Below are positions 1,383 to 22,979 of a DNA stretch of 64,000 nt, piece by piece. Made by a program: the position numbers and the translations under genes. The notes below the pieces were generated by a model. It had not been told where the DNA came from. It made no database searches and saw only the letters and a list, made by a program, of their open reading frames with translations. This DNA is from Eutreptiella sp. 'Long Island Sound 2002' (taxonomy: Eukaryota; Euglenozoa; Euglenophyceae; Eutreptiales; Eutreptiaceae): contig OZ038383.1 in the NCBI GenBank assembly GCA_964036045.1, positions 39,310,294 through 39,374,293 on the forward strand, read 5' to 3'. Within the stretch, counting starts at the first letter, position 1; each line of letters opens with the position of its first letter.

Positions 1383-1856
1383 CTACACTTGTGGTAAATG
1401 GGTGTGCGCGCATGAGTACACTGAGGATAGTAGGAGGACACCGACCCGCAGCGTTCCCATTGCCCTCAACACACGGTCAAGCCACGTGTCTCCCGCGTGT
1501 GATGCAAACGCCGTCGACGGAACCATAAACTGCGTGCACACCCCATACTGTGCGTGCAATAGGTACAACAAGGCTTGCAGCTCACCATTGATCACGGCCG
1601 AGCGATGGTGCGTTAGCTGGGCCACAATCGCTACCACGGAGTCGCGCCACAGGACCGGGATATCCGCCAACCTAAGCCCTTTGCTAGATTGGACCACTAC
1701 TTTGGACAACTCTTTGGGCAGGTTTTCAAGCTGCCTTGCCGCAGCTTTGATGGCAGCATTTAACCGCACACTCTCTGCCAGAATGTCCGACAGGTACGGC
1801 GCCGCGTACCGCACTATGCCACCAACCACCGCTGCCATCACCTTACGGGGCACCAA
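1383..1856 (-). pseudogene. LINE segment downstream of the RT palm (thumb-like)
   Basis: This 157-residue open frame directly follows the RT palm on the minus strand. The stretch VMAAVVGGIVRYAAPYLSDI resembles the helical region after the RT core of APE LINEs. The position fits the thumb or connection region, but the family match is weak and I rely mainly on context. A further open frame at 1,153-1,413 (minus) probably continues the same polyprotein after another frameshift. Confidence 0.45.
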
Positions 1857-1886
1857 TGCTGGCCCCAGTGTGTTCTTGCACCAGGC

Positions 1887-2752
1887 CTAGAGAGCTTCGC
1901 AGCGGAGCACGTGTTTCTCTTTCATGAATGCCATCCCCGTAGGGTGAAGCCTGAGGCCCAGGTGCGGTACGTTACTCTTGGCCATTAGACAGACCCACGG
2001 AGCAACCACATTGTTAGATCTAGGTGCACCGTAATTGAGAAGATACGCGCCATGGTGGCGTACACACATTTCTGAACATTGCGGGACATGCCCATGTTCG
2101 CTGAGTAACGCGCAATCACCACTGCTGCGTACTACAAAAATTGCGGTGGCATGTGTGCCATCAGCAGGAGGTCGTTGCAATACGCCTGTATCAGGAGCGG
2201 CACTGCGTGGCGGGCATCTCCTTGGGCCTTGCTGGCAAAGCTCCGCAGGAGGGGTTCTAGGAGGAGGAGATAGAGCACTGCCCTTTCCAGGTTGCCCTGC
2301 CGCGTGCCGCGATGAAGGCGCTTGCTCAGGGTCGGGCCGTGTGCAGTGACAATGCGCACTGTAGAGCCACACTTGAGGGTGTGGAAGAGCTTGATGAGCT
2401 CCTCCGGGACCTCCATGTAGCGCAGGAGGAGAGCCTTCGCGCCATTTGGCGCGTTGTCAAAGGCCTTGTAGACATCAAAGGCCAGGACGTGATTCGCTTG
2501 TTGACCTCGCTGAAGCCTATGCTACGCCAGGAATACCGGGCCGGCTACCGTACAGCCCGGCATGGCCTCGATTTGGGAGTCTGCGGCCATCCCCTTGCCA
2601 ACCACGACCGCCGTGAACCTCCGCATGAGGGGGGTCATGAGCATTCTCATGTCCTACTGCCCCAACGCTATGGGCCGGTATGCGTCCTAGTCCCACGTGG
2701 CCGTTACCTTCCGCGTCAGCCAGATTATGGCCTCATACCACAATCCCGGGAC
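1887..2752 (-). pseudogene. LINE reverse transcriptase domain, frameshifted
   Basis: This is a reverse transcriptase palm and finger domain. Reading the minus strand down from 2,752, I see a finger motif VPGLWYEAIIW, then YRPIAL near 2,660. Motif A, AFDVYKAFDNAP, is at 2,456-2,480. HRGTRQG (motif B region) is near 2,310. The active-site box reads AYCNDLLL at 2,171-2,182, where family members have YADD, so one catalytic Asp is replaced by Asn. The segment HLGLRLHPTGM after it is the usual post-motif-C region in another frame, so at least one frameshift lies near 2,160. In-frame stops also occur near 2,672 and 2,645. The domain is recognisable but not functional. Confidence 0.8.
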
Positions 2753-2760
2753 TTCCGCGC
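2753..2760. other. Target-site duplication, left copy (TTCCGCGC)
   Basis: These 8 bp are repeated exactly at 20,149-20,156 on the same strand. On the minus strand both copies lie inside the LINE codons for Arg-Gly-Ala-Glu. The LINE frame runs on through Glu-Val-Pro-Gly when one copy and the intervening DNA are removed. Eight-base duplications are typical of hAT insertions. Confidence 0.85.
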
Positions 2761-2774
2761 CAGCTATGTGTATA
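2761..2774 (+). repeat. Left terminal inverted repeat of the giant hAT-like element
   Basis: The sequence is CAGCTATGTGTATA. Its inverted partner at 20,135-20,148 reads CATCTATGTGTATA from the outside in, so 13 of 14 positions match. Both ends start with CA, as hAT termini usually do. Beyond position 14 the two ends diverge. Confidence 0.82.
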
Positions 2775-4759
2775 GCGACCTAGTCGGCTATCAGACATCA
2801 GACATCATGAAACCCCCGATTGCTATTTGACACCCAGCCACATATTGCCACCCCGTCCCGATTTGTTGTTAGTAGTTGTGGGTTGTGCAGTTTCCAACCA
2901 TTTTCAGCCCCTTCGATGATGGCGACGTTGTGTGTGCACGGGCCTGCTCCGTGGAACTTGGGTCTGGGCTGCAGCAGGGGCCCATGCGCAGACCCCTGCA
3001 GGGACCTTTTTCTTAGGCCCCGTTTTGTGTTCCACGGATTTTTTTGAAATGCCACTGCCAGTGCCCAAATCCAGCCAATACCGCACCTGAGATGGGTCCC
3101 GAAGCAAACAGTCGACGCGCTTAGCATGTAGCACTGTGGTATAACGCTGTGGTACACCGCACCCCAAAAAACCATGAATCCAATGCAAGGTCCTTTGTGC
3201 ACATGCAGTGGGATAGCTGAGAAGGGGCTCTTCTCTGATGTTGTGTTGCCAAGTGTGTGTTATGGGTGTTACGCATCCCCTTCAATGATTTTTCGTTTCC
3301 AAGGGCGCAAACGAAGGGGGATGATTTGTTGACGTCGGGTCTGTGCTTCCCCTACAGCAGAGGCACAGACCCCCGCAGGGACATTTTTTCTTAGGCCCTG
3401 TTTGGGTTGGCAGAGCTGTTGAGAAAGTGGGGCGTGAAAGAGCATTTGCCTAAGCATGGGAAAATCAGTACCATCCAACTCTACATTCCACCGGGAAGGG
3501 ATCCAGGGATCGCAGCAGCAGCATCCCTAAAGAGCCCCCGAGCCGCAGCCCCCGTCCCGGCCATGGCGCCGGTGGACTCGTTCGCGCGACAGTTCGCCCA
3601 ACCCTCTGCCCCGCAAATGCGTGCCCCAAAGCCGCAGCAGCCATATTTCAAACATCCCCACAGTCGTATGGCGCCCGGAGGCTGACGCTTCCACCAAAAA
3701 CAATGTAATGAGAAGGGGATCTGCTTTGGCTGTTTCGGTTACCATTCTCAGAGGTGTGCGTTGCTAATACTTTTGTGTTTTGGTTCTGTTTGATTCTATG
3801 GATTTGATGGATTTTATTTTATTAGATGGATCATGCAAAGTCACTAATGCCCCCTTCGACCCCTTCGATGATGAACATGCTGCCAGCTCCTGAGAAGGGG
3901 TCCCGATTCGTTGGTATTTGCATGCATATGCGTACCCCAGTTGTGCCTTGTATGTATGCATCGCCTTCGATGATGTGTCAGCCATCTGGGAACAATCTCT
4001 CCAGGGCCTACTGTTCTAGGCCCTATTTTGTTGGATGGAGCCAGGCATCTCCCCATACTCCAACGGATCTGCATGTTTGCCAAACTTGCCGAAGACCAGT
4101 GCACTCAGCCCTCCTGCACCCTAGTGCTGCACGACATATGCCAGCCCCTACCTTGACAGCTTGTCTGGGTCATTGCGCAAATTCCGGCCCCAAGGTTTCT
4201 TTTTCATTGTGCCTTGCTGGGCGCAGTACTGTGCAATGTGGCGGACTGCATTTGAGTTGGGTGATGCAGAATTCCCACTGTCAGCCCAAAAAAAAAACTC
4301 AGAAGGGGCTCTGCTATGTGTGTACTGGTGGTCGACAACTTGGAGGTATTTCGTTTTGATTTAAGGTGGTCCTAATTTCCTGGTATGTTTTGCTTCTATT
4401 GGATTTGATTTTATTTTATTTGGCGGATCATGCAAAACACCCTTGAGGTGTTTAGTGCGTACGTGGTCTAGGTCATGGCGCCTATGACCATAGACCCCTT
4501 CAATGACGAACATGCTGCCAACTACTGAGATGGGGTCCGATGTCACATTCTCCTGGTACCTATGTCCCTTCAACGCTTATCTGTTCCTTGTTGTGCATGT
4601 CTCTCTCGACACAAAGGGAAATGCGTGTATTGCATAGGAGACAAGTGTGCGCTGAGCCTCTTCTACACATAGGGCAATCTTTTGTTATCAACCTCCCCCT
4701 TGAGGCGAGGAAGCGCGTCTTGGGTCTAGACCGTTGCGTCTCTGACCCAGACATTTGAG
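2775..4759. repeat. Left part of the giant element: diverged direct repeats, no convincing gene
   Basis: Several motifs recur in this stretch. A block around CCCTTCGATGATG appears near 2,911, 3,857 and 3,964, with a variant near 4,496. A ~55-bp block with GGGACnTTTTTCTTAGGCCC occurs at about 2,970-3,030 and 3,355-3,412. A ~150-bp block containing GGATCATGCAAA recurs at about 3,760-3,900 and 4,360-4,540. Only the short proline-rich frame at 3,407-3,685 looks coding. I see no start, promoter or other gene. Confidence 0.5.
3407..3685 (+). pseudogene. Proline-rich fragment with one copy of the 96-bp repeat
   Basis: This is a 92-residue open frame. It holds a short globular-looking start (LLRKWGVKEHLPKHGKIST) followed by a Pro/Ala/Gln-rich segment containing PVPAMAPVDS. 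That segment matches the repeats at 6.9-7.8 kb, so this is a diverged relative or displaced piece of the same ORF. I do not recognise a function. Confidence 0.35.
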
Positions 4760-4818
4760 TTGGGCCTGCCCCAGCACCCACGCGTTCATCCCCCACCCAC
4801 TGCGGGCTGCAATTTGCC

Positions 4819-5445
4819 ATGTCGTCTCGCCCCCTTAGCGTGGCCTCTTCCGCCCCCTCCAGCCCTTCGTTCCAGGAATGCGGTTGGGGGGATCTGCCGG
4901 AGGTCTTGCGGTTTGGAGACCAACCCCCATCGCCACCGTGGGATTCTGATGCTGAGAAGTGTCTCAGCGAACTGGCCTCGCCCCAGCCTCCATTGCTAAC
5001 ACTGCCTCCCTCTCCCCCTTCACCCTGCCGTGCACCAACAACCTCTCCAACGCCCGTAAGTCCTCCGCGCAGACCCCACGTTAACCCAACCCCATACCAT
5101 TTCTTAGTCCTTAAAGGGGCGCAGGGAGCGGCGGGCCGGTGGCAGGCGAGAGGTTGGGTGGGATCGGCGGGACCTGTGTCAAATATCCCTCTCTGGAAAG
5201 AGCTACTGCAGCTTTTGGATTCCACTTTTCAAGATATTCTGTGGGTGAAAGTTCCCTCCCACGTGAATGTGGAAGGTAACGAGCAGGCCGACACCCTGGC
5301 TAACAATGGTAGATTCAGCAACCCCCTGTACCTAGCTCGGAAGACCCCCAGGGTCCAAGCGGCAGGGCAACGCGCCAAACGGGCACGCCAGGTAGCGGCT
5401 CGGAGTCCCCCCGGGGTGTGTCCCCCCCGCACCCAATCGTACTGA
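4819..5445 (+). pseudogene. RNase H fragment behind a Ser/Pro-rich segment
   Basis: Residues 1-100 of this 208-residue frame are low-complexity Ser/Pro. Residues ~121-172 match the C-terminal half of RNase HI as found in retroelements: a helix (LWKELLQLL), the strand VKVPSHVN, and the turn EGNEQADTLAN, with the expected His and Asp. The N-terminal half with the first catalytic acidic residues is missing. It lies inside the giant hAT-like element and is opposite in strand to the flanking LINE, so it comes from another retroelement or was captured. No partner domain is adjacent. Confidence 0.6.
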
Positions 5446-6862
5446 ATTTTGAGCAGTGTATTGCTTCACCAGGACCAAGAGAGGAAACCCCGAATGTCCC
5501 TTCGGATCAGGGGCATGAGAGTGATGTGTGGCTGCAATTGGGTTTAGTTGAGATGCCAGACAGCCCGAGGAGCGAGGAGTCTACGCACAGCCACCTGTCG
5601 AGTGTTCCCACAGTCACCAATCACTCCGAAGGGCCGGGGACCCCCACAACCCCATTTTGTGACAGGATCACGCATACAAGGGGGGGGGGGGGCGCAGCCC
5701 TACAACGTCCTGCAGCGAGCACGGATCCACAGAGACCCAAACCCCCCCACCGGCGCCTGACACCGCATACAACGGGGACGGGAATCGGAGCCCCTCGACC
5801 TCATGCAGTGAACGGGGTTGTTCCTAGGGCACTTTGTTGTGACGCTTGGCACCATACTTGGTTTTGTTCATTGTGATGCCCTATTTGTTCTGACACGACA
5901 GGTGCCCTATGTGTTTGGCGCTGGCACACGAAGGTTATATGTTATGCTATCAGGCTTGGCAGCTGCCGCCTGCTCCCAGTGTGCACCCGCTTCCAGGAAG
6001 CGGCATGTCGGATGCTCGTGTACATATCAGGCTGTGTCTTAACGACTGGATGTAGCATAGCAGTTGATTGTGGACAACACCTGGAACATTGGCTGGAGTT
6101 GCCTGGGCGGGGGCATCCAGTATCTGTGACCGACCATGATTGAGCCCCAACCCCATACCAGGTAGCCCTGGAAGCCGTGGAGGAGGCCCTGATGTGCACT
6201 GCCGTGTAATCGCCATCCCCCCAACAACCCCCCAAGTACGTACCCAAGGACCCCCCCACCCCCCCCAAAACACACTGTACACGGGCCCTACAGTGCCAAA
6301 ACACTGCAGCTCATCCGGGAGAATCACGGGGACGAGGTTCAGTATTTCGTAGACGGGGTGCTGAACCGCCGAGCGATGTACCGGTTTGCTGTGCAGCAGC
6401 CCAAAAAAAACCCCCTGCGGGTGTGGCAGGGGGGCATGCGAATTGGCCGTTCGCATTTCCTCAGCAGGGACGAGGAGCATGCAGCAGTGGTGCTTGAAAT
6501 CGTGTGTGCCACCCCAAAACCCCCCCGTATCCCCAAGCCAGCCCCACCACCTGTGCCTGGTCGGCCGTTGCCCCCTCCACCAAGTGTTCAGGTGATGCTG
6601 ACCCAGTATAGCAGGCACCGCCGTACCTCACTCCTCCCACTGGCTCCCGCACCGAAGCGGCCAAGCCCCACCCCGTAGTGCGGTTCATTGCTCCAGCGGC
6701 GTGCGTCTCAGTCCGCCCCCCCACCGGTGAGGCCGCAATTTGGGTCATTGCTCCCTGCGCAAGCCCCCCTGCAGCGACCCCAGACTTCGGCGAGACGTTC
6801 GAATTTCCAGCTCTTCGGCCAGTGTGCACTGAGCGTCTCTTACTCATAGGGCACTCTTCCAA
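5446..6862. other. Low-complexity stretch with no confident gene
   Basis: The stretch is C-rich with many proline codons and a poly-G tract near 5,681. A frame at 6,358-6,678 (plus) contains a plausible start (MLNRRAMYRFAVQQPKKNPL) and ends in a Pro-rich tail, but matches nothing I know. Text near 6,820-6,860 echoes that at 4,650-4,685 (a GTGTGCnCTGAGC core followed by CATAGGGCA), which suggests an old duplication. Confidence 0.35.
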
Positions 6863-7855
6863 ATGGCTCCAAAATGGCCCGCCAAGACCAAGTATGGTGC
6901 AAAGCCGAAGCCAAAGGCAACGGCACCACCAACATCACCACCATCGCGCGCCCCAGAGGAGCCGCACGCGGCCCCTGTCCCGGCCATGGCGCCGGCGGAC
7001 AGGGGCGCGCCACCCTCTGCCCCCCCACAGGCAACGCCCCAGCCACCACCCGGGGGTGTGGATTTTGTCACGATCCCACCGCAACCCTCGGCACAACCAC
7101 CACCATTGCGCGCCCCAGAGCCGCAGCAATCCGCCCCAGTCCCGGCCATGGCGCCGGTGGACTGGGGCGCGCGACAGGGTGCTCCACCCTCTGCCCCGGG
7201 AATGCGTGCCGCCGAGCCGCAGCAATCCGCCCCTGTCCCGGCCATGGCGCCGGCTAACAGGGGTGAGCGACAGGGTGCTCAACCCTCTGCCCCCAGAATG
7301 CGTGCCCCCGAGCCGCAGCAATCCGCCCCAGTCCCAGCCATGGCGCCGGTGGACTCGGGCGCGCCACGGGGTGCCCCACCCTCTGCACCAGCAATGCGTG
7401 CCCCCGAGCCGCAGCAATCCGCCCCTGTCCCGGCCATGGCGCCGATGGACTCCGGCGCGCCACAGGGTGCCCACCCTCTGCCCCGCAAATGCGTGCCCCA
7501 GAGCCGCAGCAATCCGCCCCTGTCCCGGCTATGGCGCTGGTTGACTCGGGCGCGCGACAGGGTGCTCAACCCTCTGCACCACCAATGCGTGCCGCTCAGA
7601 CGCAGCAGTCCATCCCCATCAAGGCACTGCCGACTGCTGCCTCGGGTGCGCCACAAGGCGGTCAACCCTCAGCACAACCACTGTGTGCCGCTGAGCCACA
7701 GCACTCCACCCTGTCCCGGCCATGGCGCCGGTGGACTCGGGTGCACCACAAGGAGCTCAACCCTCTTCACAACCACCATGTGCCGCTCCGCCACAGCAGC
7801 CAACGCTGTTGCCCACTTCGGCCACATTGAACAACATGGACTACGGGCCCGATGA
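6863..7855 (+). CDS. Pro/Ala/Gln repeat protein ORF (96-bp, 32-residue units)
   Basis: This is a 330-residue open frame dominated by tandem 32-residue units with the core RAPEPQQSAPVPAMAP followed by VDSGA and PSAP. Unit starts fall at about 7,108, 7,204, 7,300, 7,396 and 7,492, an exact 96-bp period. The unit length is a multiple of three, so a frame stays open through expansion. The repeat text shifts frame near 7,470, where the frame beginning at 7,489 takes it over. It may be a disordered structural or gag-like segment of the element, or only an in-frame minisatellite. I do not recognise a function. Confidence 0.4.
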   Translation: MAPKWPAKTKYGAKPKPKATAPPTSPPSRAPEEPHAAPVPAMAPADRGAPPSAPPQATPQPPPGGVDFVTIPPQPSAQPPPLRAPEPQQSAPVPAMAPVDWGARQGAPPSAPGMRAAEPQQSAPVPAMAPANRGERQGAQPSAPRMRAPEPQQSAPVPAMAPVDSGAPRGAPPSAPAMRAPEPQQSAPVPAMAPMDSGAPQGAHPLPRKCVPQSRSNPPLSRLWRWLTRARDRVLNPLHHQCVPLRRSSPSPSRHCRLLPRVRHKAVNPQHNHCVPLSHSTPPCPGHGAGGLGCTTRSSTLFTTTMCRSATAANAVAHFGHIEQHGLRAR

Positions 7856-7904
7856 CAACCTTGTCGAAGGGTTTACGCAACAGTGGCTTGACCGCGACCC
7901 CCAA

Positions 7905-9167
7905 AGTATTTGACGGATGTACGTCCGTCAAATGTTTGGGGGCTGTAGACCCCCCAAATATTTGACGGATGTGCGTCCGTCAAATATTTGGGGGGCCTAC
8001 ACGCCCAAATATTTGAGGGATGTACGTCCGTCAAATGTTTGGGGGCTGTAGACCCCCCAAATATTTGACTGATGTGCGTCCGTCAAATATTTGGGGGCTG
8101 TAGACCCCAAAAATATTTGACGGATGTGGTTCCGTCAAATAGTTGGGGGCTGTAGACCCCCAAAATATTTGACGGGTGTGAATCCGTCAAATATTTGGGG
8201 GACCTACACCCCCAAAATATTTGACGGATGTGCGTCCGTCAAACATTTGGGGGCTGTCGACCCCCCAAATATTTGACGGATATGGTTCCGTCAAATATTT
8301 TGGGGGGCCTACACCCCCAAAATATTTGACGGATGTGCGTCCGTCAAATATTTGGGGGCTGTAGACCATCCAAATATTTGACGGATGTGGTTCCGTCAAA
8401 TCTTTGGGGGCTGTAGACCCCCAAAATATTTGACGGAACCACATACGTCAAGTATTTGGGGGGTCTACAGCCCCCAAATATTTGACGGACGTACATCCGT
8501 CAAATATTTGGGGGGCCTACGCCCCCGAAATATTTGACGGACGTACGTCCGTCAAATGTTCGGGGGCTGTAGACCCCCCAAATATTTGACGGATGGGGTT
8601 CCGTCAAATAATTTTGGGGGCCTACACCCCCAAAATATTTGACTGATGTGCGTCCGTCGAATATTTCGGGGCTATAGACCCCCCAAATATTTGACGGATG
8701 TGGTTCCGTCAAATATTTGGGGGCTGTAGACCCCCAAAATATTTGGCAAATTTGGTTCTGTCAAATATTTGGGGGAGCTACACCCCCAAAATATTTGACG
8801 GACGTACGTCTGTCAAATATTTGGGGGCTGTAGACCCCCAAAATATTTGACGGATGTACGTCCGTCAAATATTTGGGGGCTGTAGACCCCCCAAATATTT
8901 GTAGGATGTGGTTCCGTCAAATATTTGGGGGGCCTACACCCCCAAAATATTTGACGGATGTGCGTACGTCAAATGTTTGGGGGCTGTAGACCCCCCAAAT
9001 ATTTGACGGATGTGGTTCCGTCAAATATTGTGGGGGCCTACACCCCCCAAAATATTTGACGTACATCCGTCCGTCAAATATTTGGGGGCTGTAGACCCCC
9101 CAAATATTTGACTGATGTGGTTCCGTCAAATATTTGGGGGCTGTAGACCCCTAAAATAGTTGACGGA
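7905..9167. repeat. Palindromic satellite array, left block (~51-bp units)
   Basis: About 24 tandem units are present. Each is itself an inverted repeat: an arm CCCCCAAATATTTGACGGA, a 6-bp centre such as TGTGCG, TGTACG or TGTGGT, then the mirror arm, with short spacers (CTGTAGAC or CCTACAC). Every unit could form a hairpin or cruciform. The array is broken at 9,167 by a gypsy patch and resumes at 10,747. Translated frames through it are by-products of its periodicity. Confidence 0.93.
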
Positions 9168-10461
9168 GCAGGAACTGCTCGCGGGTATGCTGGTGCTATC
9201 CTCTCAGTCCCGACTGTTGGGGAGTAACCCAGTGGGTTGGCTGCGCGACGAAGAACCGGTCCGTACCTTCCAGAAGGGACCCCCACCTGAGAAAGCTAAG
9301 CTCCGACGCTGGTGCACCTACCTGAGCGAGCTACGGCTCTCAATACATCATATCCAGGGCGTCAAGAACGAGTGGGCGGACTACATCAGCCGCAACAACT
9401 TCGACGACATGATTGGTGCCAGGTCTGAGGAGCTAGCCAAGGAGGCGCTCAGCCGTATGGATGAACACCTGGACTTGAACATGACCATGATCAGACCTCC
9501 AGATGGACTCCGACAAGTGGAGTACCTGAAGGAGTTTGGGGATTTCTACAAATGCCTGGACAAGCGTCTGGAACCCGTCCTGGTCAACCAGGAGCAGTGC
9601 AAACTGGACAAGACCTACCTCTGGCATGAGGACCGGATAGTCGTGCCTAGCGAGAGAATCCCGGCGCTCCTCAAGTGGACCCATGAGTCCAGTGGTCATG
9701 TGGGGGCCAACCGTACCCTGAGGCTTTTCAAGCAGTGGTTCCACTCTACGTGGACGGATGACCAGCTGCAGAAAACCCTCCAGCTTATCGTGGACAAGTC
9801 CTCGTGTCGGTCCTGTAAACCTGGGGATATCAGGGATAGAGGTCTCTATTCGACTCTCCGTATCCCCCACTGTGCCAACAGTGTTCTCTATCTACACTAC
9901 ACAGAGATGCCTAGGTTCGGGGGCTATGACTTTGCCCTAGTGGTAACCTGTGGGCTGACCAGGTTTACCAGGGTGTTCCCATGTACCAAACACATCACCG
10001 GCGAGGGGATCATCGAGATACTCCTGGAGGAGTGGTTCTGTGTCTATGGGGCACCCAACGAGATCAACTCAGACGAGGACGTCCGAGTGCGCTCCGACAC
10101 TGGCTGGTACAAGAGAGTCCTGAGGTCCCTCAATGTCCAGGTGTCAAAGGGGATTCCCTATACTCATACGAGTAACCCCCTATGTGAGCAACGGATTCGT
10201 GTTCTCAAGGAGAACGTAAGGACCTGGTGCAAAACTGAGCGCACCAAAGACTGGGTGAGACTACTCCTCGTCATATCCTTGATGATGATCTCCCAAGAGA
10301 GTCCTAGGGGCGGAGAGACCCGGGGCGTACCCCGTGGCACCGGTGCGACATTCGCCGGGTTCAACAAGGGTGCAGACTTGGGCATAATTAGGACACCATT
10401 TCTGCCGATAGCTCATAGGTCCTTAGGATCAGCGCATCCACACACACATGGGCAGGTATAG
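9168..10461 (+). pseudogene. Ty3/gypsy RNase H tail and integrase
   Basis: Residue numbers count from 9,160. Residues ~3-85 are an RNase H tail (EQELLAG, then SIHHIQGVKNEWADYISR). An HHCC zinc-binding domain follows (H175, H180, C216, C219). The integrase core spans ~240-360. Its second catalytic Asp is D305 (INSDED) and its Glu is E343 (PLCEQRIRVLKE). At the first Asp position the sequence reads LYLHYTEMP, with His246 where the family has Asp, which should abolish strand transfer. The frame begins abruptly inside RNase H because the patch starts there. No reverse transcriptase lies upstream. Confidence 0.85.
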
Positions 10462-10502
10462 GAAGGGTTAAGTCCCTAGGTTTCTTCTAAGAGGCAAGCG
10501 TT

Positions 10503-10733
10503 TCAGCGAGCCTCGGCAACTCTCCTAGGTTGTTCTGGGACAAGTAGTCTACCAGAACAGAATCGAGGCGTGCGTCCCTCAGGAAGAACAAAGGCAGAGA
10601 AGGGTTCCCAGGTAGCTTCTTCAACTCCAAACCCTTCCCAGAGGGTGAGGAAACACCACACCCGGCGATAGCGGTGTCGGATGACCAACTTCACCAGGTA
10701 GAAGAGTTCCTTAGCCATCTCCTCGGCATTCAT
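10503..10733 (-). pseudogene. Chromodomain fragment, inverted relative to the integrase
   Basis: The minus-strand frame reads CFLTLWEGFGVEEATWEPFS, which matches the chromodomain core YLVKWkGy...eTWEP found at the C-terminus of chromovirus integrases. In an intact element it would follow the integrase on the same strand; here it faces it. This indicates an inversion, or the joining of two gypsy fragments head to head. Confidence 0.65.
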
Positions 10734-10746
10734 GTCGGGAAGTGGC

Positions 10747-11065
10747 CGGATGTGCGTCCGTCAAATATTTGGGTGGCCTACACCCCCAAACTATTCGACA
10801 GGCGTACGTCCGTCCAATGGTTGGGGGGCCTACACCCCCAAAACATTTGACGGACGTACGTCCGTCAAATGTTTGGGGGGTGCAGGCCCCCCAAATATTT
10901 GACGGATGTGCGTCTGTCAAATATTTGGGGGGCCTACACCCCCAAAATATTTGATTGATGTGCGTCCGTCAAACATTTGGGGGCCTAAACCCCCGAAATA
11001 TTTGACGGATGTACGTCCGTCAAATTTTTGGGGGGCCTACACCCACAAAATATTTGACGGCTATG
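10747..11065. repeat. Palindromic satellite array, right block
   Basis: About six more units of the satellite seen at 7.9-9.17 kb, with the same arms and spacers. The phase continues exactly from the left block once the gypsy patch is removed. The units nearest 10,780-10,870 are the most diverged. Confidence 0.9.
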
Positions 11066-11159
11066 GTGCGTCCTGGTTCTGTGGTTTCATCTGTACCTTT
11101 TCTCCTTGTAGTTTGTTTTTGCCTCATTACACCTTTTCCTGTGTGAGTTCGCGTTCTGC

Positions 11160-11465
11160 CAGTTCGCCTACTGCGCGCCTTTGAGCCACAGCTTTCGGTT
11201 TCGGTCTGTGCCATTGCGCTTCGCGACTGAACCCTGGTCGCCTACTGTGCGCCTTTGAGCCACAGCTTTCGGTTTCAGTTTGAGCCACCGCGCTTTGCGA
11301 CTGAACCCTGGTTGTCTACTGTGCGCCTTTGAGCCACAGCTTTCGGTTTCGGTCCGAGCCACTGCGCTTCGCGACTGAATCCTGGTCGCCTATTGTGCGC
11401 CTTTGAGCCACAGCTTTCGGTTTCGGTCCAAGTCATTGCGCTTCGCGATTAAGCCTTGACGTAAC
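11160..11465. repeat. ~75-bp tandem repeat, about four copies
   Basis: The unit contains GCGCCTTTGAGCCACAGCTT and later GCGCTTCGCGACTGAACC. Copies begin near 11,174, 11,248, 11,323 and 11,398. The array ends just before the long plus-strand coding region, so it could sit in a leader or promoter area. No TATA box or other signal is evident. Confidence 0.8.
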
Positions 11466-11471
11466 CACTGT

Positions 11472-13464
11472 GTGCCACTGAGCCGCAGCACTTCCTTTGT
11501 TGTCATAGCCCTAGCGCTCTCGACAACAAACCCACCCACAACGGCGTCTCCGGGACCAGCCGGTGAGCCTCAAGACAAGCCCGGCTGGCACTTTGAGTAC
11601 CAAGGACTTGCCCTTGATTGCCCCCCCGAGTTGTGGGAGCCCCATAGGGGTCACGGTTGTGGACCCTGCAAGCCACGAAGGTCACCCAAACCACTAACAG
11701 TCGTGGTGCACGAGCCAAGCAATGAACCAGCCTGCTGAGTGGCCACCACAGCACTTGCTGGAGCCAGCAAGAATGAAGTATGGCCTAATGCCGGCCACAG
11801 GACAATTGGGGTGGCAGGCCACGCCGGAGGTGGCCGGGCGCCTATGGAGACGGTTGAAGGACCACATGGCCTTGTGTGTCCTTGACGTGGTGAATCCGCA
11901 TGGTTGCAGGGCATTGTGCCGGTTCATGTACACCGAGCATGGGTTTGCCAAGCCCACCTTGCATGATGGGGGTAGCCTCGTGCACTACCGGGAGGTTGCC
12001 ACAGAACTGTGGGAACGACTTGCAAAACGAAACAGTGGCCGGCCAGGCTATCGTAAGGCCGGTGCTATTGCCGGGTGGCCGTCAAGTGTGAAGATAGCAG
12101 AGCAAAGGGAGGTTTGGTGTGAACTGGTGCGTGCCCTACCTCTGGTCGACGAGTGGCCGTTCTGGACTGGGGACGAGGCATATCCCAGCCCTACCATGGG
12201 TTACTTCTATGACAAGGCTATTCGCCACGTTACGCTTGGCCCATATCTGTGGCCCCAAGCGACAAGTGGGCCCAAACCACTAGTGAGCGACCTGTTGCCA
12301 GGCCCCAAGGCGCCTGCTGCCAGTCGGCGCAACTCGTTGTTGCCTCAGGCTGCGGTCCCACGTGCGTGTGTCACTGTCACCCAGACACGGCAAGAGCGCT
12401 TTGACCAAGTGTTGCTGCAAGCCGCCCAGGGGGCAGCCCGCTGCCTCACGATTGCATGCCAGGGGCTGCAAGAGCAGCGCCAGGAAACATTGACCGAGGA
12501 CAGCCTGGTGGCAGCATACACGCTGGGCCGCCACTTCGCGAACAGCATGCGGGTGCCTATGCAAGACTGCAACGAGCTGTTGCTGCGTTGCAGCCCCTTT
12601 AGCCCAGAGGTGCCAGACAGTCACCCCGGCCGTCTGCATGCGGCCGTACGGGTTGTGGACAACGCGTGGAGGAATGATCGAGCTCTTGAGATGTTGCAAC
12701 TGCTAGTGGAGGAGATGGAGGCGGCCGGTGTACAGCCTGCATACACCCAACGATTAAGTCCACAAGGGCACCCTCGAGGTGACCCAAGTGACTCCACGTC
12801 CTCTGCCGTAGCGCAGGGGGTTGGAGCGGCGGTGCTCATGGAGGAGATGGAGGCGGCCGCTGTACAGCCAGCATACACTCAACGATTAAGTCCAGAAGGG
12901 CACCCTCGAGGTGACCCAAGTGACTCCACGTCCTCTGCCGTAGCGCAGGGGGTTGGAGCGGCGGTGCTCATGGCAAGAGACCCCTCAGGCGATGAGTCTG
13001 TGACTCCCACTTCGTCCTCCCTGGCACAAGGGCGTGGTCCCCCGGCAGGTGCACAGAGTGTGGATAGCCGTGGTGAGGTGTTCAGTCCACCTGACCCCCC
13101 CCGCCCAGGTGGTGCGACCGAATCCCCGGCATGTGTTGGACATGCAACACCAGACCCTAGGTCCCAGGTCTGCCCCGCCAATGAGTCACCTTCCATTGCA
13201 CCCATAGTAGACCCTACAGGGGTTCTCACGGCACACTCCCCAGCCCCCCACCCTGCATATCTGACACCGGCGGTTAGTGATGGAGGGGTGGCGAGTTGCT
13301 TGGAGGAGTCTCCTATACCACTTGCACAGAAACCCAAGGAGCCAGCTGCTCTGGACTGTAGTCCTTCTAGCACAGGCACTGTGGCGACAGTGAAGGCTTT
13401 CGATCAGGCCAGTGCGGATTCAGGGTCGACCCCGCTTGAACACCCCAGTTCATTGGCACAGTGA
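11472..13464 (+). pseudogene. N-terminal region of the hAT-linked protease gene, function unknown
   Basis: A 580-residue open frame runs from 11,722 to 13,464, with a likely upstream extension at 11,472-11,738 in another frame (GWHFEYQGLALDCPPELW). The first ~330 residues look globular and Trp-rich (WQATPEVAGRLWRRLKDHM, EVWCELVRALPLVDEWPFW) but match no family I know. The rest is a disordered Ser/Pro-rich linker with two 44-residue repeats. It ends at a TGA caused by a 1-bp deletion inside a 75-bp repeat (near 13,458). The adjacent copy also has a CAG-to-TAG change. The text then continues in the next frame into the OTU domain, so both are probably one gene. Confidence 0.55.
12709..12972. repeat. 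132-bp direct tandem duplication in the linker
   Basis: Two adjacent, nearly identical in-frame units of 132 bp encode 44 residues each, including EEMEAAGVQPAYTQRLSP and DSTSSAVAQGVGAAVLM. The high identity shows a recent duplication. The period is a multiple of three. Confidence 0.85.
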
Positions 13465-13605
13465 AGGCTTGCAGTTAGTCTAGTGCGGATTCAGGGTTGA
13501 CCCCGGTTGAATACCCCAGCTCATTGGCGACCGTGAAGGCTTGCAGTCAGTCCAGTGCGGATTCAGGGTCCACCCCGGTTGAACACCCCAGTTCATTGGA
13601 ACAGA
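13380..13605. repeat. ~75-bp coding repeat, three copies
   Basis: Each copy encodes SSADSGSTPVEHPSSLA or a variant. The middle copy carries both a 1-bp deletion and a TAG, which split the reading frame. Comparison with the outer copies shows directly that these are mutations and not an intron. Confidence 0.8.
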
Positions 13606-15140
13606 GCCCACGGAGCAAGAAGCGCCGAGGGGTTACACCCCCAAGTAATGGGGCTGCCGCGAAACGTGGCAAGAAAGAGCAAGGCACAAAGACAGCTCCG
13701 ATAGATCCAGATGCTATGGCATTGGACGATGTGGACCGACAGCCCAACAAGGCCGAGGGTGGCAGAGTCCTACCAACCGCGAGGTCCTTGAAGCTTCGCA
13801 TTCTTCCGGACCAGTACGTTGCAGGGGCATGTTTCTACTATGCTGTGGCCCAAAGCCTGCATGCTATCAGCAGCAACGCCCCGTTGGACAGCGCATCGCT
13901 AAGGGCAAAAGCCATTGCCGTGTTTCGCGACATGTGTGGCCTTTCAATTCAAGAGTCTGCACTATCTGTGAACCGGGATCTTGAGAAGCACACATGGCGT
14001 GGCCGGCCCCAAGGGGGAATGCCTGAGCACTTTGCTGCCTTGCCGAAGCATGTGGATGGTAGTGTGGTGTTGCTGCGATCAAACAGGTTCAGCACTGTGA
14101 CGTCAGGGTTTGGGATGGACAACGCGTTGACATCCGCTGCTGTTTGGGTGCCTGGACAGGAGAATCCGCTGCACTTCCATGACTGTGGGGATATGGAGGA
14201 GCACTGCCACCGGGCGACGGTGGTGGTTATTGCCGAGGCGGAACGAGATGGTGTCAAAGGAGGTGGCCATTTCCGGGGTGCAGTCTTTGACCATTCGCCG
14301 CACGTAGCCCCCTTTTGCACGTTGCACGGGATGATGGGCATCTTGCCATACAAGCGTGGGCCAGTTGGGGGGTTTCGAGCGTGGCATTTGCAGCTAGGGG
14401 TTGGCGGTATGAAGGGCCACACCAATGCAAGAGACTGCCGCCGCACTCGTCTAGTGCAACATACGCGCCACTACAAGCTACTTGTGACCCTGGTGAACAA
14501 GATGGCAAGGCAGATGTTGCCTCATTGGTTTACAAGGACCACCATGCAATTGTCTTGCAATGTCCTCACAAAACCGCATCAGCATGTGCATGACGCGTCC
14601 CCTTGGTCGGCAGTGTTTTCCACCGGCCAGCACACGCGGGGACACTTATGGGTGGAGGCGGGTGGTGTATCTAATGGTCTGGGTGGACGGAGATGTAGTA
14701 TGCAGTGCTTGGATGGTGTTACACGGGATGGCGCCACGTACGATGTATGCCAGCAACCGTTTCTCGTACGTACGGGTGCATGGCATGGCACTTTTTAATG
14801 GCACGGGGAGAGGAGGTTGGTGGTGTTGTACTCCCGCGGTGACTGGCAAACACTCCCGCCGTGGGACCGTGCATTCCTCAATGAGACCGCATTCCGCTTA
14901 CATGCAGGTGCATAGTGGGCCACTTGGTGGAGCACCGCGGCGACCATGGGGAATGCAGAATCCATATGGGTACAACTAGTGGTGGTTGGGTACCACGCTG
15001 CAGTGCCTGTTGGTGGCGTTGGGTGGACATGGAGGACAGCACGCAGGATGCCTGGACGAGGAGGGTGTCTGGGGACCATTGTGGCAGGGTGTTGTGGGAC
15101 ATGGAGGAGGTGGTGCATACAATCCACAGGACATTGCTGA
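13497..15140 (+). pseudogene. OTU-like cysteine protease domain of the giant hAT element
   Basis: OTU proteases cleave ubiquitin or related chains. In the 433-residue frame ending at 14,798, residues 1-95 are a disordered, partly basic linker (SKKRRGV). At 101-121 the text ILPDQYVAGACFYYAVAQSL fits the OTU active-site block, with D105 and nucleophile C112, followed by the helix SLRAKAIAVF. A late His box, GGGHFRGAVFD (H258), supplies the third element. The frame continues past an in-frame TAA at 14,796 and a TAG near 14,912 with coding-like text (WDRAFLNETAFRLHAGA). It follows the N-terminal linker and precedes the USP domain, all on one strand. The family call is inferred from motifs only. 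Confidence 0.65.
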
Positions 15141-15826
15141 GAGGCTAGCCATGGAGGATGCCATGTGTGAGACGGTGTGCCGATGCAGCGGGCGATGCAG
15201 GTGCAAAGCCCCTGCACCAAAATTCCAATGGATGCGGCAGGCAGAGATGGCCGAATGTTGGAAGTACATGGTGCCCAAGCTCACGGCCGCTGGGGTGGTT
15301 GCTTTGTCATGTTGTTTGTCGTACGAGCAAGTCTGGCAATACTGTGGTGCCTGTGGGGTGAAGGTTTTGCGGGAGGGGGGGGAGACAGGCATGCCAGCGC
15401 AGGTATTGCATGTGACGAATCAGGGGCAGAGTGTGCGACAGCGCGTCAAGGAGGGAATGAAGGGGCGACCGGTTGGGTTACCTGATAACCCCCCCCCTTG
15501 TCCGTGTGGGAGTGACCTGAGGGAGGCACCAATGTATACATCTTTGGTGTTCAATGAGGTCGTGGGGTTACATGTCCACAACCAACAGGAGTACAAGTTG
15601 GTTGTGGACCATGAGTTTCTCGATTGCTTGGGATGGCAATGGTCCTTGCATGCCATGGTGTTGCACATTGGATCGACGAGGGAGGAGGGCCACTTTGTGG
15701 TGTATGTCCTTTTCAACAACAAGTGGTGGCTCTGTAATGACACCACGGTGAAGGGCATGACCCCCCCCCCCCCCGACCCGCGAAAAGCAACGTTTATGCT
15801 ATACAAGCGCAAACAAACGGATTTGG
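14986..15826 (+). pseudogene. USP/UCH (C19) ubiquitin protease, C-terminal half
   Basis: USP enzymes remove ubiquitin from proteins. Residues ~219-276 of this frame fit the C-terminal USP signature: LHAMVLHIGSTREEGHF with catalytic His236, then NNKWWLCNDTTV with the Asn/Asp pair (251-252), and ATFMLYKRK at the end. Upstream are a Cys cluster (CETVCRCSGRCRC, 61-73) and CPCG (172-175), as in the zinc-binding insertions of USPs. The N-terminal Cys box is not convincing: the best candidate is Cys400 of the preceding frame (GVSNGLGGRRCSMQ), which lacks the usual Asn-Thr. Frame changes separate it from both neighbours. The frame stays open to 16,158 through a proline-rich repeat. Confidence 0.72.
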
Positions 15827-18800
15827 TTGTACCAGACATGTCGCAGTCTGCCTCCCAACGAACAGGACCTCCAGCCCTTCCTCAGACACGGGATGCCCAG
15901 AGCACACCTATTGGAACCTCGGTGCCAGCCGTGGCGCTGGCACCAGGTGCGCCCCCCCCCCCTTCCTTCAACACAGGGTGCATCAAGGGTTGGGGACACG
16001 AAGAACAGGCCTATGCATGCCCAGAGCGTGCCTATGGACGCCTCCGTGCCAGCCACGGCGCTGGCACGAGGTGCACCCCCCCCTTCCCCAACTGCAACAC
16101 AGAGTGCATCAAGGGTAGGGGACCGGAACTTGAGTATGCATGCCGAGAGCATGGCTGATGAGATGTGTGTGGCTGCCTCGGCGCCGCTACAGACGTCCTC
16201 AAAATTTGTTGAGGCAGTGGCACAGTTGCTGCAGAAGCGCAAGGTGCGAGTGGCCAGGCATTTGAGAGTGCGTGTTGAAGCACACCAGATGCAACTTAGA
16301 GCACGGCATGCGAAAGGTCGGGATGTGCGGCATGCAGAGCATGGCATGTCGCAATCGTTAGTGGCACAGTCAGTGGAGCAGGACAGGTTGAGGTCTGTTG
16401 CATTGGCCGCATTAGGGAAGGATGCATTGTGCGTGTTGATGCACGCCACTCCCATGCAACTAGACAGTGGTCCAAAGACACTACAAATGTTTGTAGCCGC
16501 TCATTGGCAGTATCAGTTCATGACAAGTGGGGGTGTTGAGTGTGTGTGTTGTGCGTGGGCTAATGTGTGTGGCATTCCTGGGGTGCCTCCCCCCCCCTAA
16601 AGAACAGTGAAGCCTTGGCATTGGGAACATATGCTATAGGGATGCGCATGAAGACCTCTGGCCCAAAAACGTGGCGGAAGGAGGTGTTGGAAAGCCACTT
16701 GGGGTTATCACGTGGCACAACATCAACGCAAAAGAATCTGCATAAGCCAGGGCACCACCACCGACTGGCCGAGGACAATTTCAAGCTGCATTGTGCAGAG
16801 CGATATCGCGCATTGTGCCCCACTGCTAGTGCCACAGCTGACGTGGTGGGAGGGAACGTTGTGTTCATCAGGGGGGAAGCCATGGACATAGGTGTGGCAG
16901 TGTCGGATGCTGAGGCAGCCATTCTGTCACGGTTGGTTGAGGTGTATATTGGGTTACGCATGTGCACTTCCATCCGTGCTATAAGTGAGCGCATCCTTCT
17001 GCACTGCTCTCTGACATCTGCCCCTGGGCACCATGCATCACGGCGGTGGATAATTGAGAAGGCTATTGCAGCAATGCATGATGCCCTGCAGGATGAGGTA
17101 ACGCACACCCTATTCCTGGCAACGTTCATTGCAGTGTTGCTTGACGGCTCGGATAGGCAGAGGCATCGCATCAATGAGTACGCCATTCTGCTTATTTTCC
17201 CGGGGACTGGCCACGGGGGCATGTGTGAGGTGTTCCTTGGTGGATGTGGCCTGTGGTGATGCACTTGAGGTTGCAACGCAGCTGGAATGCGTCCTGCTGT
17301 CCTGGATTCCTGACCGTGATTGGTGGGCAAAGAGGGTAGTGACCTTTGCAGTGGACGGGGCTTCTAACCTTGGTGTGCGAGGTGCCAGTGCGCGGCAGGT
17401 TGTTGATGTCTCTATCATTGAGAGCAATGTGTTTGCCTTGATTGGGAAGTGGTTGGTGTTGATGACACCCTTGGGGGAGCCGTGCCATGTGTTGCAGCGC
17501 AAGTTGGGTCTTGCATTGGAGGCTGCTGGCCCAACCCATGTTGATTACTTGGCGGCCGTCAATCGGCAACGAGGCTTGTACAATGGGGCACGGCAGTGGA
17601 AGCAGTTGCAAAAGTGTGTGCAAAAGCATGTGCAGGATAAACGTAGTGGCTTGTAGCTCATCCCCCCAAGTCATCGCATCAGGTGGTCACAGGCGCATGC
17701 ACGGCGCACCACTGCTTTTTTGGCCAATGTCCCTTGGGTGGCACGACACTTGGATTCCAAGGTGCAGCATTCTACCAAGGAGGAGGATGTGTGGGAGGAC
17801 TGCCATGATGCCAGTTTGCTTGCATGGGGGGTGGTTTATGGGGACATCCTGCATGGCACGCGGTGTTTTAACAGTGTGGCACAACGACGTGCGCCCACTG
17901 GTGCACACTTAGCCACTGCAGCAGGTATGCTACAAGCCCGGTTGCAGAGGGTGGCTCGCGAGGAGGGTCCAGGGTGGTTGCAATTCAAGGAGCAGACTGT
18001 GACCGGTGCGTGGTGTGGTGTGCAGTTGCTCCAGTTTGATTCAGGTGGGCAGAAGTGTGCAACAACCCCTCCTTTTCCAGGCGTTCAAGCGCGTGCAGTG
18101 ACTGATGTGTTGCTTGCAGGCATCAAGGAGGGACAGGCAACCATTGACCCCAGGGGGTTGTTGGAGTACGCAGTATTGTTGGACCATGGCCGTTTCGTTG
18201 CCCTCCCGGTCAATGAGCGTGCTGCATATGGGGTGGAGCAGTTGCGCCAATTCATGGCTTCACACCAAGAAGAGTTGTGCGCAACACATGTGAACTGTGA
18301 CCGTGTCTTGGTAGAGTGGGAAGGCCTTAAGGAGCACATGGTGCAGCACTTTGCAACTGTGCAAATGTCCAAGATGTGGGAGGCATTGGCACCTGAAAGG
18401 GCACATGCACAGTGGGTCAATGTGTGGCGCGTTCTCGCATTATTGCGAACATATTGCCCTGCTGAGGCTGCAGTAGAGCGTCCCATCTCTTTGCGTGGGA
18501 GGTTCTGCAGTAGTATGCATGACACTGTGGAGACACATGTCCTCAGCATGTGCACGGCATTGCATTCCAACTTGCCCCCTTTACAACAATGGGCAAAGGG
18601 ACAAGGCGTTGCAGTGGCACACCACCCGGCTGCCCGTGCACGCTTCGATCTGGGCCCAAGACAGAGGGTTTCAAGGAAGGTAGGGAACAGAGAATTTGTG
18701 GAGGCTGCAATGCTTCAATGTTTGCAAGGTAATGAAGCAGTGGGTGATGATGGTGACATGCTGCCCTTCTTTGGAGGGCCAGGTACACCACTGACCTCAA

Positions 18801-19135
18801 CGGCACCCTCAGGAAAGGGTACAGAACGGCACCAGGCACATGTGGTCAGCTGTGTTGCACCCGATGGGACCCCTGACTCGCATGCTGGCAACCATGACTT
18901 CATCTCTTTTCGCAGAGGTATGGAGTGTGCCACATGCAAGAAGGAGGTTCGCATCTGGTGCAATACATGTCTGGTGTGCCATGCATGCTTTTGCGCAAGC
19001 CCGCGTCCTTGTGGGAACGTGGTGGTGAATGTTGTAGATGATGTGTGTGATGAGGGGGAGAACAATAGTGCAGACGAATTGGCCACACCACGCAAGCCAA
19101 ATAGGCGTGGTGTGGCCAGGATGCAGGCGAAATAG
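15827..19135 (+). pseudogene. hAT-like transposase (ZNF862/ZMYM-like type)
   Basis: This is the enzyme expected to cut and move the element. Parts in order: a coiled or basic stretch (16.2-16.5 kb); a possible zinc finger (VECVCCAW and a His cluster GHHH, 16.5-16.8 kb); the first catalytic region LATFIAVLLDGSD near 17,130-17,160; the second, FAVDGASNLG, near 17,350; CHVLQRKLGLAL near 17,490, equal to the C.aHrL.La block; RIRWSQ near 17,680; and the hAT dimerisation region AEAAVERPISLRGRF near 18,460. The C-terminus has a Cys-rich knuckle (CATCKKEVRIWC, then CLVCHACFC). Lesions: a poly-C frameshift near 16,590, a frameshift near 17,200, and a TAG at 17,654-17,656. Apart from that TAG, the frame is open from 17,129 to 19,135. 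Confidence 0.72.
15890..16145. repeat. ~125-bp Pro/Ala coding repeat, two copies
   Basis: Both copies encode SVPAxALAxGAPPPP followed by text around CATCAAGGGT. The first copy reads in the USP frame and the second in the transposase frame. A poly-C run (about 15,950-15,962) separates them, so a homopolymer slip between the copies would fuse USP and transposase into one frame. Confidence 0.65.
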
Positions 19136-19405
19136 GTGATGGCAGCGCAGAATGGCAGGCTGCGTGATTGGTCAAAGGGGGCGTTGTTGAATTGTTTGGA
19201 TGTGCTTGGTGTGAAGGTGGCAGGTAACAGCAATCGACGGGAACTGCGGGACATTGCTACGCAGCAAGCGTTGCCATTATTGCACGAATGGGATGCCTTT
19301 GTGCCGGACACGGACCGTGTCGCCCGTTCTGCGGCACCACCAAGCAGCTCCCAGCCCAGTTGCTCGCAGCCAGTGGATCACATGCATGGACTCATCAATG
19401 AATGA
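19136..19405 (+). CDS. SAP-like DNA-binding segment
   Basis: This 89-residue frame begins directly after the transposase stop. Residues ~8-47 read LRDWSKGALLNCLDVLGVKV then AGNSNRRELRDIA, which has the helix-turn-helix spacing and Leu/Gly pattern of a SAP motif (two helices around LGL-x-G-xK-xxL). The tail is Ser/Pro-rich. It may be a small separate protein or a C-terminal extension of the transposase after the TAG at 19,133. Fold assignment is inference. Confidence 0.4.
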   Translation: MMAAQNGRLRDWSKGALLNCLDVLGVKVAGNSNRRELRDIATQQALPLLHEWDAFVPDTDRVARSAAPPSSSQPSCSQPVDHMHGLINE

Positions 19406-20134
19406 GAGGATGCCCACGTATTTGCATGTGCCCTTTTGTTGTTGTGTGCTGTCTTCGAAGATTTTTCCCATTTTCCGTGTTGGCACATTTGATGTTCTGT
19501 GGCGTTACCATGACCATTTTATTTGTGGATCTGAATTTAACTGATTCCGATTGCAATGGTCATGATGCTATCCCTTGAGATTTTTCCCGTTTTCCCTGTT
19601 TGGCACATTTCCCCCACGTTTTTCATTTGGTTTTCAGTGCTACATATGGCTTGTTTGTGTGGTGGTCGTTCCATTTTCCCCTTTCCCCTTTCCCCTTTCC
19701 CCTTTCCCCTTTCCCCTTTCCCCTTTCCCCTTTCCCCTTTCCCCTTTCCCCTTTCCCAAAGTACACAAACAAATTGTCGGCTCAAACAACCAAAATCAGA
19801 ATCAAATTGAAGTTGTCACATACACTGCTGTCAACGACAGGTGTGCAATTGTTTTCCAAACGGGGGGGTCTGTGTTTTCTTTGGCGCCTTTTCTCCTTTG
19901 GGGGGGGGGGGGGGCTGGAAAGCACCCGATAGTGGGGGGGGGGGGATGGGTGGGGTTTCCTGCGAAGAATTCGGTGTGGACAACGGCGGGGGGGGGTTGA
20001 TTTAGGCATAGTTTCTCCCAATTTCCTCTAGGCATTGGACCCCTAGACCCACCTCCAGTACATAAGAATATCAGACATCTTCTTGGACAGACCGCACACA
20101 CAACATCCCTTATTAGACATCAGACAGCAGACTA
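19406..20134. other. Right untranslated end of the giant element
   Basis: I see no gene here. It contains two similar ~30-bp blocks (TTTTTCCCATTTTCCGTGTT near 19,463 and a variant near 19,581), a (CCCCTTT)n array at 19,677-19,757, poly-G tracts near 19,901, 19,937 and 19,988, and AGACATC motifs near 20,073 and 20,116 that are also present at the left end. It ends at the right inverted repeat. Confidence 0.6.
19677..19757. repeat. (CCCCTTT)n microsatellite, about 11 units
   Basis: A perfect heptanucleotide array of CCCCTTT on the plus strand. It resembles a telomere-type repeat only loosely (AAAGGGG on the other strand) and lies inside a transposon, so I treat it as a simple microsatellite. 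Confidence 0.93.
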
Positions 20135-20148
20135 TATACACATAGATG
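20135..20148 (-). repeat. Right terminal inverted repeat of the giant hAT-like element
   Basis: Reads CATCTATGTGTATA from the outside in and matches the left end at 13 of 14 positions. It lies directly against the second TTCCGCGC copy. Confidence 0.82.
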
Positions 20149-20156
20149 TTCCGCGC
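20149..20156. other. Target-site duplication, right copy (TTCCGCGC)
   Basis: Exact copy of 2,753-2,760. LINE sequence resumes immediately beyond it on the minus strand, in the same codon phase as at the left copy. Confidence 0.85.
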
Positions 20157-20157
20157 C

Positions 20158-20880
20158 ACGGAGAATGACCCGACAGGCAAGCACTAGGAGCCCTTGCACA
20201 GGTCAAGGCAGCTCTACAGTGACGGCTGCCATGACCCTATTGAATTCTGGCGCCTTACTCTACTAACGCCTGCTTAGCAGTGTCCTTGAGGTCTTGCAGG
20301 GTGTAATCCTGCACCGACCTCCATTCCTCGTGCACGCCCCGAGGGATCTGGCCGCGGACCAGCCCTTCAACGGCCGGAAGATTCACTGGCCGCTTGGCAT
20401 ACATCCTCTCGCAGTACCTCTGGACTTCCCCAATGCCGAGGCCTCCGTGAGCACTTTCTCCCACTCCTGGACTCGCACCGACCACAAGCCCCAGGGAGCA
20501 TACGTGACCACATTAATGGCCCCTCGGATTGCCGCCCACCGTGGCTGCGGATCCCGGACCCTGCCCGGCTCGTAGTCCTTGATAAACCTGCGCCGGTTGC
20601 GCCGAAGGAGTCCCCGGAGCTCTTCCACCCGCTGGTGGAGCTACTGAAGTTGTTGATTCAGTGCTTCCCGCAAAACCTGCATGATGGCGGGGGACAGGTC
20701 CGGGTGCATGCGCGTGTGGTGTTGCAGGAGGGAGGCAGTGTCCCTGGAGGCGAGCCCTGCCTCCTCCGCATCTCGTCTCCACAGCTCCCTGGCACGCCAT
20801 GAGGGTGCTTGTTGATTCGTGAGGACCTGCCCATAGGGTGACTGCGGGTCCATGCCTAAGGGCATGCGCACCCCCGTGAC
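20158..20880 (-). pseudogene. LINE connector between endonuclease and RT
   Basis: On the minus strand the frames read LWRRDAEEAGLASRDTASLL, then RNRRRFIKDYEPGRV, then EEWRSVQDYTLQDLKDTAKQ and, after a frameshift, KAPEFNRVMAAVTVELP. That last piece fits the K-A/S-P-G-x-DG region just before LINE RT fingers, with a deletion. The final codons (Arg-Gly-Ala-Glu) join in frame to Val-Pro-Gly-Leu-Trp at 2,752. Two stops and at least one frameshift are present. Confidence 0.6.
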
Positions 20881-20904
20881 ACCCGGCACTTTGTTAGGGA
20901 AGCT

Positions 20905-22930: not shown

Positions 22931-22979
22931 CGTAGAGCAAATTGAAGCCGGCCTGCACCACTGGCGTGCCCATGGTGGC

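Follow-up and report, generated by a model that had tools for sequence, protein, structure and literature searches.

A giant inverted-repeat transposon family in Eutreptiella with a ubiquitin-protease-like region joined to a putative transposase

What is the 17.4-kb piece of DNA that splits a long interspersed nuclear element (LINE) in the euglenophyte Eutreptiella sp. 'Long Island Sound 2002', and what moved it there? The piece lies in a stretch of 64,000 nucleotides (assembly GCA_964036045.1, contig OZ038383.1, positions 39,310,294 to 39,374,293 of the forward strand), which we refer to as the window. An earlier note on the window had taken it for a giant hAT-like transposon. Its ends, its target-site duplications (TSDs), empty LINE sites and related copies confirm that a giant transposon bounded by terminal inverted repeats (TIRs) split the LINE. 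Our reading, to which we assign a probability of roughly 0.85, is that positions 2761-20148 are a decayed subfamily B copy of a giant DNA transposon family that moves as DNA by means of its own large protein. The family is either a very diverged hAT lineage or an unrecognised superfamily.

The ends of the insert and the LINE around it are laid out as follows (c11 denotes a second copy of the element, introduced below).

1..2752, minus strand: reverse transcriptase region of the host LINE, lying 3' of the insertion (from frame continuity, the joined-flank search and RVT_1)
2753..2760: left 8-bp TSD TTCCGCGC, read directly; a single copy stands at the equivalent spot of the empty LINE site L097
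2761..2774, plus strand: left TIR CAGCTATGTGTATA, read directly; CAGCTATGKGTATAGYRACC has matches in the genome
2791..2803, plus strand: subterminal TCAGAC repeats of the left end, at element positions 31 and 38 and at identical positions in the c11 copy
20071..20125, plus strand: right subterminal TCAGAC repeats, oriented as at the left end
20135..20148, minus strand: right TIR TATACACATAGATG, reverse complement CATCTATGTGTATA
20149..20156: right 8-bp TSD TTCCGCGC, read directly
20157..23882, minus strand: host LINE on the 5' side, which includes a minisatellite and an endonuclease-like open reading frame (ORF; by eye, without a Pfam match)

Read directly, the insert within the LINE is 17,388 bp long. 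Its 14-bp TIRs, CAGCTATGTGTATA and CATCTATGTGTATA, are identical at 13 of 14 positions with one mismatch, and once the insert and one copy of the TSD are removed the minus-strand LINE frame runs unbroken across the junction. The duplication at 2753-2760 and 20149-20156, the inverse sequences just inside it and the conserved codon phase that the earlier note had described thus all hold, in a LINE copy that itself carries internal stops and of which a piece beside the junction has a match to RVT_1 (E=7.4e-4) that stays under the curated cut-off. When 214 bases of joined flanks were used to query the window's own genome (G000; 2.28 Gb, with a 201-Mb contig), 38 of the 40 matches scored among 230 candidates spanned the junction uninterrupted at 76-85% identity and represent the empty LINE sites that the note had proposed to look for; the other two are the window's own halves. 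At one empty site (L097), compared base by base, TTCCGCGC is present once. These uninterrupted sites speak strongly against a TSD that is a repeat native to the LINE. There is no sign of an assembly join either: neither boundary contains N letters (both junctions were read) and both coincide with ends that recur genome-wide in the family. Within the LINE, a long GC-rich minisatellite with units of about 40-50 bp (by eye) occupies 20900-22950, between the reverse transcriptase side and the endonuclease-like ORF. About 11 units of (TTTCCCC)n, telomere-like in form, follow one another in the right subterminal region of the element (19679-19757, by eye).

The element has many relatives in the same genome. 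The left-end 20-mer CAGCTATGKGTATAGYRACC has 822 exact matches, and its reversed control has none. Twelve copies were read at both ends (the window copy, c11 and ten on contig C1), of which 11 display a perfect 8-bp TSD and one a 7/8 match; the 11 copies beyond the window (10 perfect, one 7/8) share its ends and carry different duplications. These twelve range from 15,773 to 44,326 bp, with a mean near 26 kb. On contig C1, ends were paired by position for 11 copies: nine have perfect TSDs (one of these a low-complexity TSD, GGGGGGGT, accompanied by one mismatch in the right TIR), one has a 7/8 match, and one shows no right end within the 801 bases examined. The c11 copy lies on contig C11, was pieced together from L039-L041 and spans 24,913 bp; it has the perfect TSD TTCTGCAT and the ends CAGCTATGGGTATA and CAGCCATGGGTATA. 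Upon comparison of the paired copies, the left ends fall into two types, GGGTATA for subfamily A and GTGTATA for subfamily B, and the window copy belongs to B. The right end is present in 19 of 20 other subfamily A copies (one with 3 mismatches) at a near constant 1.2-1.3 kb past the transposase match, with different sequence beyond each. Left ends guessed by distance were found in none of four copies, and when the first 220 bp were searched as DNA, they matched only a repeat starting 59 bp inside the element, and no other left ends.

At the protein level, P0091 of subfamily B and the subfamily A protein of L002 share 72% identity, and the corresponding protein-database clusters hold 231 (A) and 215 (B) member sequences. 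Both P0031 (A) and P0091 (B) find a 100% match in the window's genome. Of 1561 first-look candidates for P0031, we scored 61 A copies, 85-100% identical to the query; 42 B copies, 96-100% identical to P0091, were scored of 1911. The matched stretch is free of stops in 46 of the A and 25 of the B copies, whose longest open frames reach 1,564 and 1,582 codons, respectively.

Intact relatives share a frame of about 1,530 codons in which a region resembling ubiquitin proteases (UCH/USP-like) is joined to a putative transposase. Gene content was taken from two elements, c11 and the window copy, each read from end to end. From left to right, c11 carries a helicase frame, a tandem array of about 10 kb, a 322-codon ORF, an ORF of 582 codons that contains a Cys-box-like motif (by eye), and a 1,534-codon frame that overlaps the latter and comprises a UCH His-box region, a zinc-finger-like stretch and the putative transposase. 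This big ORF and its window counterpart both stop about 0.7 kb before the right end. The array between the helicase and transposase genes (c11 9800-19470) is built of 1.16-kb units. PF00443 matches above its cut-off in the window (3.3e-8) and in L002 (1.3e-5), covering only the C-terminal part of the profile, including the His box. The first of two AlphaFold models, that of P0091, displays a helical domain at residues 993-1057 (confidence score pLDDT about 92), and residues of about 21-90 and 691-770 are of middling confidence.

The window copy holds the following features between its ends.

4819..5445, plus strand: ORF with an RNase H fragment, probably a piece of a nested retroelement (PF00075, 2.2e-6)
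6863..7855, plus strand: proline-rich ORF with 96-bp repeats, without a helicase match
7900..9189: minisatellite of 52-bp units, shared with a second element of subfamily B
9160..10461, plus strand: Gypsy-type integrase fragment, probably a nested insertion (PF17921, 4e-4; PF00665, 5e-3; both below curated cut-offs)
11722..13464, plus strand: ORF, function unassigned; 12109-12738 is 43% identical to the c11 322-codon ORF
13497..14798, plus strand: Cys-box-like half of the UCH/USP-like region (motif by eye), 51% identical to the c11 ORF; no match in Pfam
14986..16158, plus strand: His-box half of the UCH/USP-like region, upstream in the transposase frame (PF00443, 3.3e-8)
16202..19402, plus strand: putative transposase, a pseudogene with frame changes and two TAG codons, intact in relatives

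The transposase-like gene of this copy is broken at four points: the frame changes within a run of C near 16590 and again near 17220, and in-frame TAG codons stand at 17654-17656 and 19133-19135. Relatives up to 92% identical are free of these stops. The window copy is a decayed, dead member of subfamily B. After its first 59 bp comes sequence that is located further inside in other copies, an arrangement that we read as an internal deletion. The hAT-like transposase that the earlier note placed inside the element thus survives in part: a putative transposase gene is there, broken, with a possible kinship to hATs. The units of the 52-bp minisatellite (7900-9189 and 10630-11137) match each other on both strands, so that the array could fold on itself; the same minisatellite occurs in L100. 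Beyond the 14-bp TIR, the left subterminal region of L100 (element positions of about 124-361) is 87% similar, in inverted orientation, to 19761-19995 in the window copy's right subterminal region.

Sequence divergence places the protein and its copies in time. Between the window B gene and two A copies, nonsynonymous divergence (dN) is 0.217 and synonymous divergence (dS) about 1.6, giving a dN/dS of 0.13-0.14 over 627 codons. Among six A copies (15 pairs), dS is 0.009-0.057 and dN/dS 0.22-0.70. The low ratio between subfamilies indicates that the large protein is under purifying selection and has been maintained over the long term, and the low dS shows that the A copies compared are young, which suggests recent movement.

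The helicase belongs to subfamily A. The 1,012-codon frame of c11 matches AAA_11 and AAA_12 (4.3e-13 and 3.8e-8), marking it as a superfamily 1 (SF1) helicase of the UPF1/DNA2-like type, and its PDB match is an RNA helicase-like protein (3.6e-8). We reduced 62 matches to 49 helicase loci by leaving out extra pieces of the same loci, and set them against the 101 known transposase loci, in which 40 of the 42 B loci were used (two on small contigs were left out). Seventeen helicase loci are followed on the same strand, no more than 45 kb downstream, by a known transposase locus, where 0.05 would be expected, and all 17 are of type A. The other 32 have no known transposase in range; the known loci number 101, out of well over a thousand candidates. 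On contig C1, an element left end lies 3.4-7.7 kb upstream on the same strand in seven of ten helicase loci. Because the helicase query is compositionally biased (110,233 first-look candidates), we derived no copy number from it.

These observations suggest how the family may move. The large protein would combine the UCH/USP-like part with a zinc finger and probably an RNase H-type (DDE-like) transposase part. It would recognise the 14-bp TIRs and the subterminal TCAGAC repeats, excise the element and insert it at staggered breaks, which would yield the 8-bp duplications; both the DDE chemistry and this cut-and-paste mode are what we infer from sequence. By analogy with the OTU and VTD domains of Helitrons, the UCH/USP part would most likely keep ubiquitin-dependent processes from removing the transposition complex. 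In subfamily A, the SF1 helicase would probably help an element of this length to be replicated or repaired.

Several observations weigh against this reading. The Cys-box-like and His-box halves of the protease-like region lie in different frames both in the window (13497-15909) and in c11, with the same shift and about 130-145 overlapping bases; this may reflect an intron, a frameshift or two proteins. Both AlphaFold models are of low confidence over the core (mean pLDDT 41.7 and 39.3; below 50 in the core of the first, that of P0091). Among 42 family proteins, aligned with one another, no Pfam transposase matched at E<=10; six Pfam families were matched by any of them, in a search in which the HMMER filters drop most weak matches. 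A sequence search of the PDB with the transposase gave no match, and NCBIfam returned nothing informative. Finally, a helicase match is absent both from the window copy and from the first 7.5 kb of L100, the sole other B element read (in part), which does carry the window copy's minisatellite.

To which superfamily does the family belong? hAT insertions leave 8-bp TSDs, and their ends usually start with CA; the elements described here have both 8-bp TSDs and TIRs beginning CA. The order of motifs on the C-terminal side also resembles that of hATs, as judged by eye against hATs of the same genome, and the best C-terminal local score against one of these hATs was equalled by only 3 of 1000 shuffles. 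We consider it an even chance that the family is a true, very diverged hAT, enlarged by added genes and repeats. Against this reading, the C-terminal dimerisation domain PF05699 was found in none of the 42 family proteins at E<=10, by a library that detects it in two same-genome hATs. C-terminal local scores against the three other hATs were equalled by 20, 130 and 137 of 1000 shuffles, and full-length scores against the four by 116, 127, 146 and 28 of 200. A profile-profile comparison (hhalign) with these four gave a probability of 0.1%, a value within the reach of five shuffles and two unrelated proteins, in a test of low power because both profiles are shallow (Neff about 1.4). In an hmmsearch with a same-genome hAT profile, six family proteins competed with 200 shuffles, and shuffles took all of the 12 best places listed. 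The canonical hATs (L089, L091, L093 and L094) resemble the family in their C-terminal motif; by contrast, they are PF05699 positive, have frames of 571-846 codons and show no full-length similarity to it. One of them (L091:316-2853) contains a chromodomain-like stretch, by eye, near its N-terminal side. Likewise, the family shares with Ac, hobo, Tam3 and Hermes the 8-bp TSD, the short CA-starting TIRs and the C-terminal-side motif order, and differs from them in its lack of a Pfam or profile match, its size of 15-44 kb, the UCH/USP-like fusion, an extra C-terminal domain and, in subfamily A, the helicase. The "giant hAT" of the earlier note therefore stands as to giant size, 8-bp TSDs and hAT-like motifs, and lacks a hAT Pfam match, a profile match to the four same-genome hATs and a structural model of its core good enough to show a hAT-type RNase H fold with a helical insertion domain; of its undescribed giant hAT lineage, a giant family with shared ends is real, and membership in hAT is not established.

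Another superfamily with 8-bp TSDs, be it new, KDZ/Zisupton-like or P-like, is a plausible alternative to which we give a little under even odds. P elements also leave 8-bp TSDs, and the transposase part has no significant Pfam match. The hAT-like motifs speak against it, as does the finding that neither the P-element models nor a KDZ model, which we take to be present in the Pfam library, is among the six families matched by the 42 proteins. The KDZ group (Kyakuja, Dileera, Zisupton) is the closest parallel in form: according to excerpts of the respective papers, Zisupton and a Dileera have 8-bp TSDs (PMC12730594), and KDZ elements of the brown alga Ectocarpus are giant and carry extra genes (PMC12477816). 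We hold as tentative the more specific proposal of an unrecognised giant TIR superfamily, seen so far in this genome only, with a deubiquitinase-transposase fusion and, in one lineage, its own SF1 helicase.

It is improbable that other hATs of this genome mobilise the element as a passenger and that the big protein is cargo. Canonical hATs are indeed abundant in this genome (150 scored of 1757 candidates, all above the cut-off). The big ORF, however, is under purifying selection; in c11 and in the window copy it stops about 0.7 kb short of the right end, and in 19 of 20 other A copies the right end comes at its near constant distance. An insertion that is only apparent, through an assembly artefact or a native LINE repeat, has practically no standing, given that 38 of 40 scored LINE matches pass the junction and that the boundaries are ends met hundreds of times elsewhere.

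A deubiquitinase-like domain in the mobilising protein and an element-encoded helicase also occur in Helitrons and Helentrons (excerpts of PMC9741609 and PMC6431247). There, OTU and VTD domains have been described and protection of the transposition proteins from the proteasome proposed (PMC9741609), with the OTU domain also reported in PMC6431247. By contrast, the family described here has TIRs and TSDs, both of which Helitrons lack, a UCH/USP-like region and a UPF1/DNA2-like SF1 helicase encoded separately. The HUH Rep protein of Helitrons was not noticed in it, although no search aimed at HUH was made. In the excerpted text of PMC12455990, transposase and recombinase genes are abundant across the Euglena genome and the family described here is not named. 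Among the matches listed for open-licence papers on Euglena transposons and on giant, helicase or ubiquitin-protease transposons, titles and abstract openings mentioned no such element.

The family demonstrates that sizes of 15-44 kb are within reach of TIR elements that make 8-bp duplications and keep conserved ends; a distant kinship with hATs could equally well prove real or illusory. Through the joining of a protease-like region to a putative transposase, whether a transposon disarms the ubiquitin control of its host becomes a directly testable question. If the family is indeed a new superfamily, its elements would bring along both their own protection from ubiquitin-dependent control and their own helper for replication or repair. 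By our own estimate, the 822 left ends, at a mean of about 26 kb per element, would correspond to about 1% of the genome, provided that most of them belong to full elements. Unclassified repeats constitute 32.7% of the published Euglena gracilis genome, according to an excerpt of PMC11252322. The family may account for part of such unclassified repeat.

Two minor observations concern the rest of the window and its genome. A minus-strand ORF at 34737-35573 matches DDE_Tnp_4 (PF13359) at 1.1e-5, barely over the cut-off, and is probably the remnant of a PIF/Harbinger-type transposase. A 24-base sequence, which we take to be the Euglena spliced leader, has 3,283 exact matches in the genome and its reversed control none.

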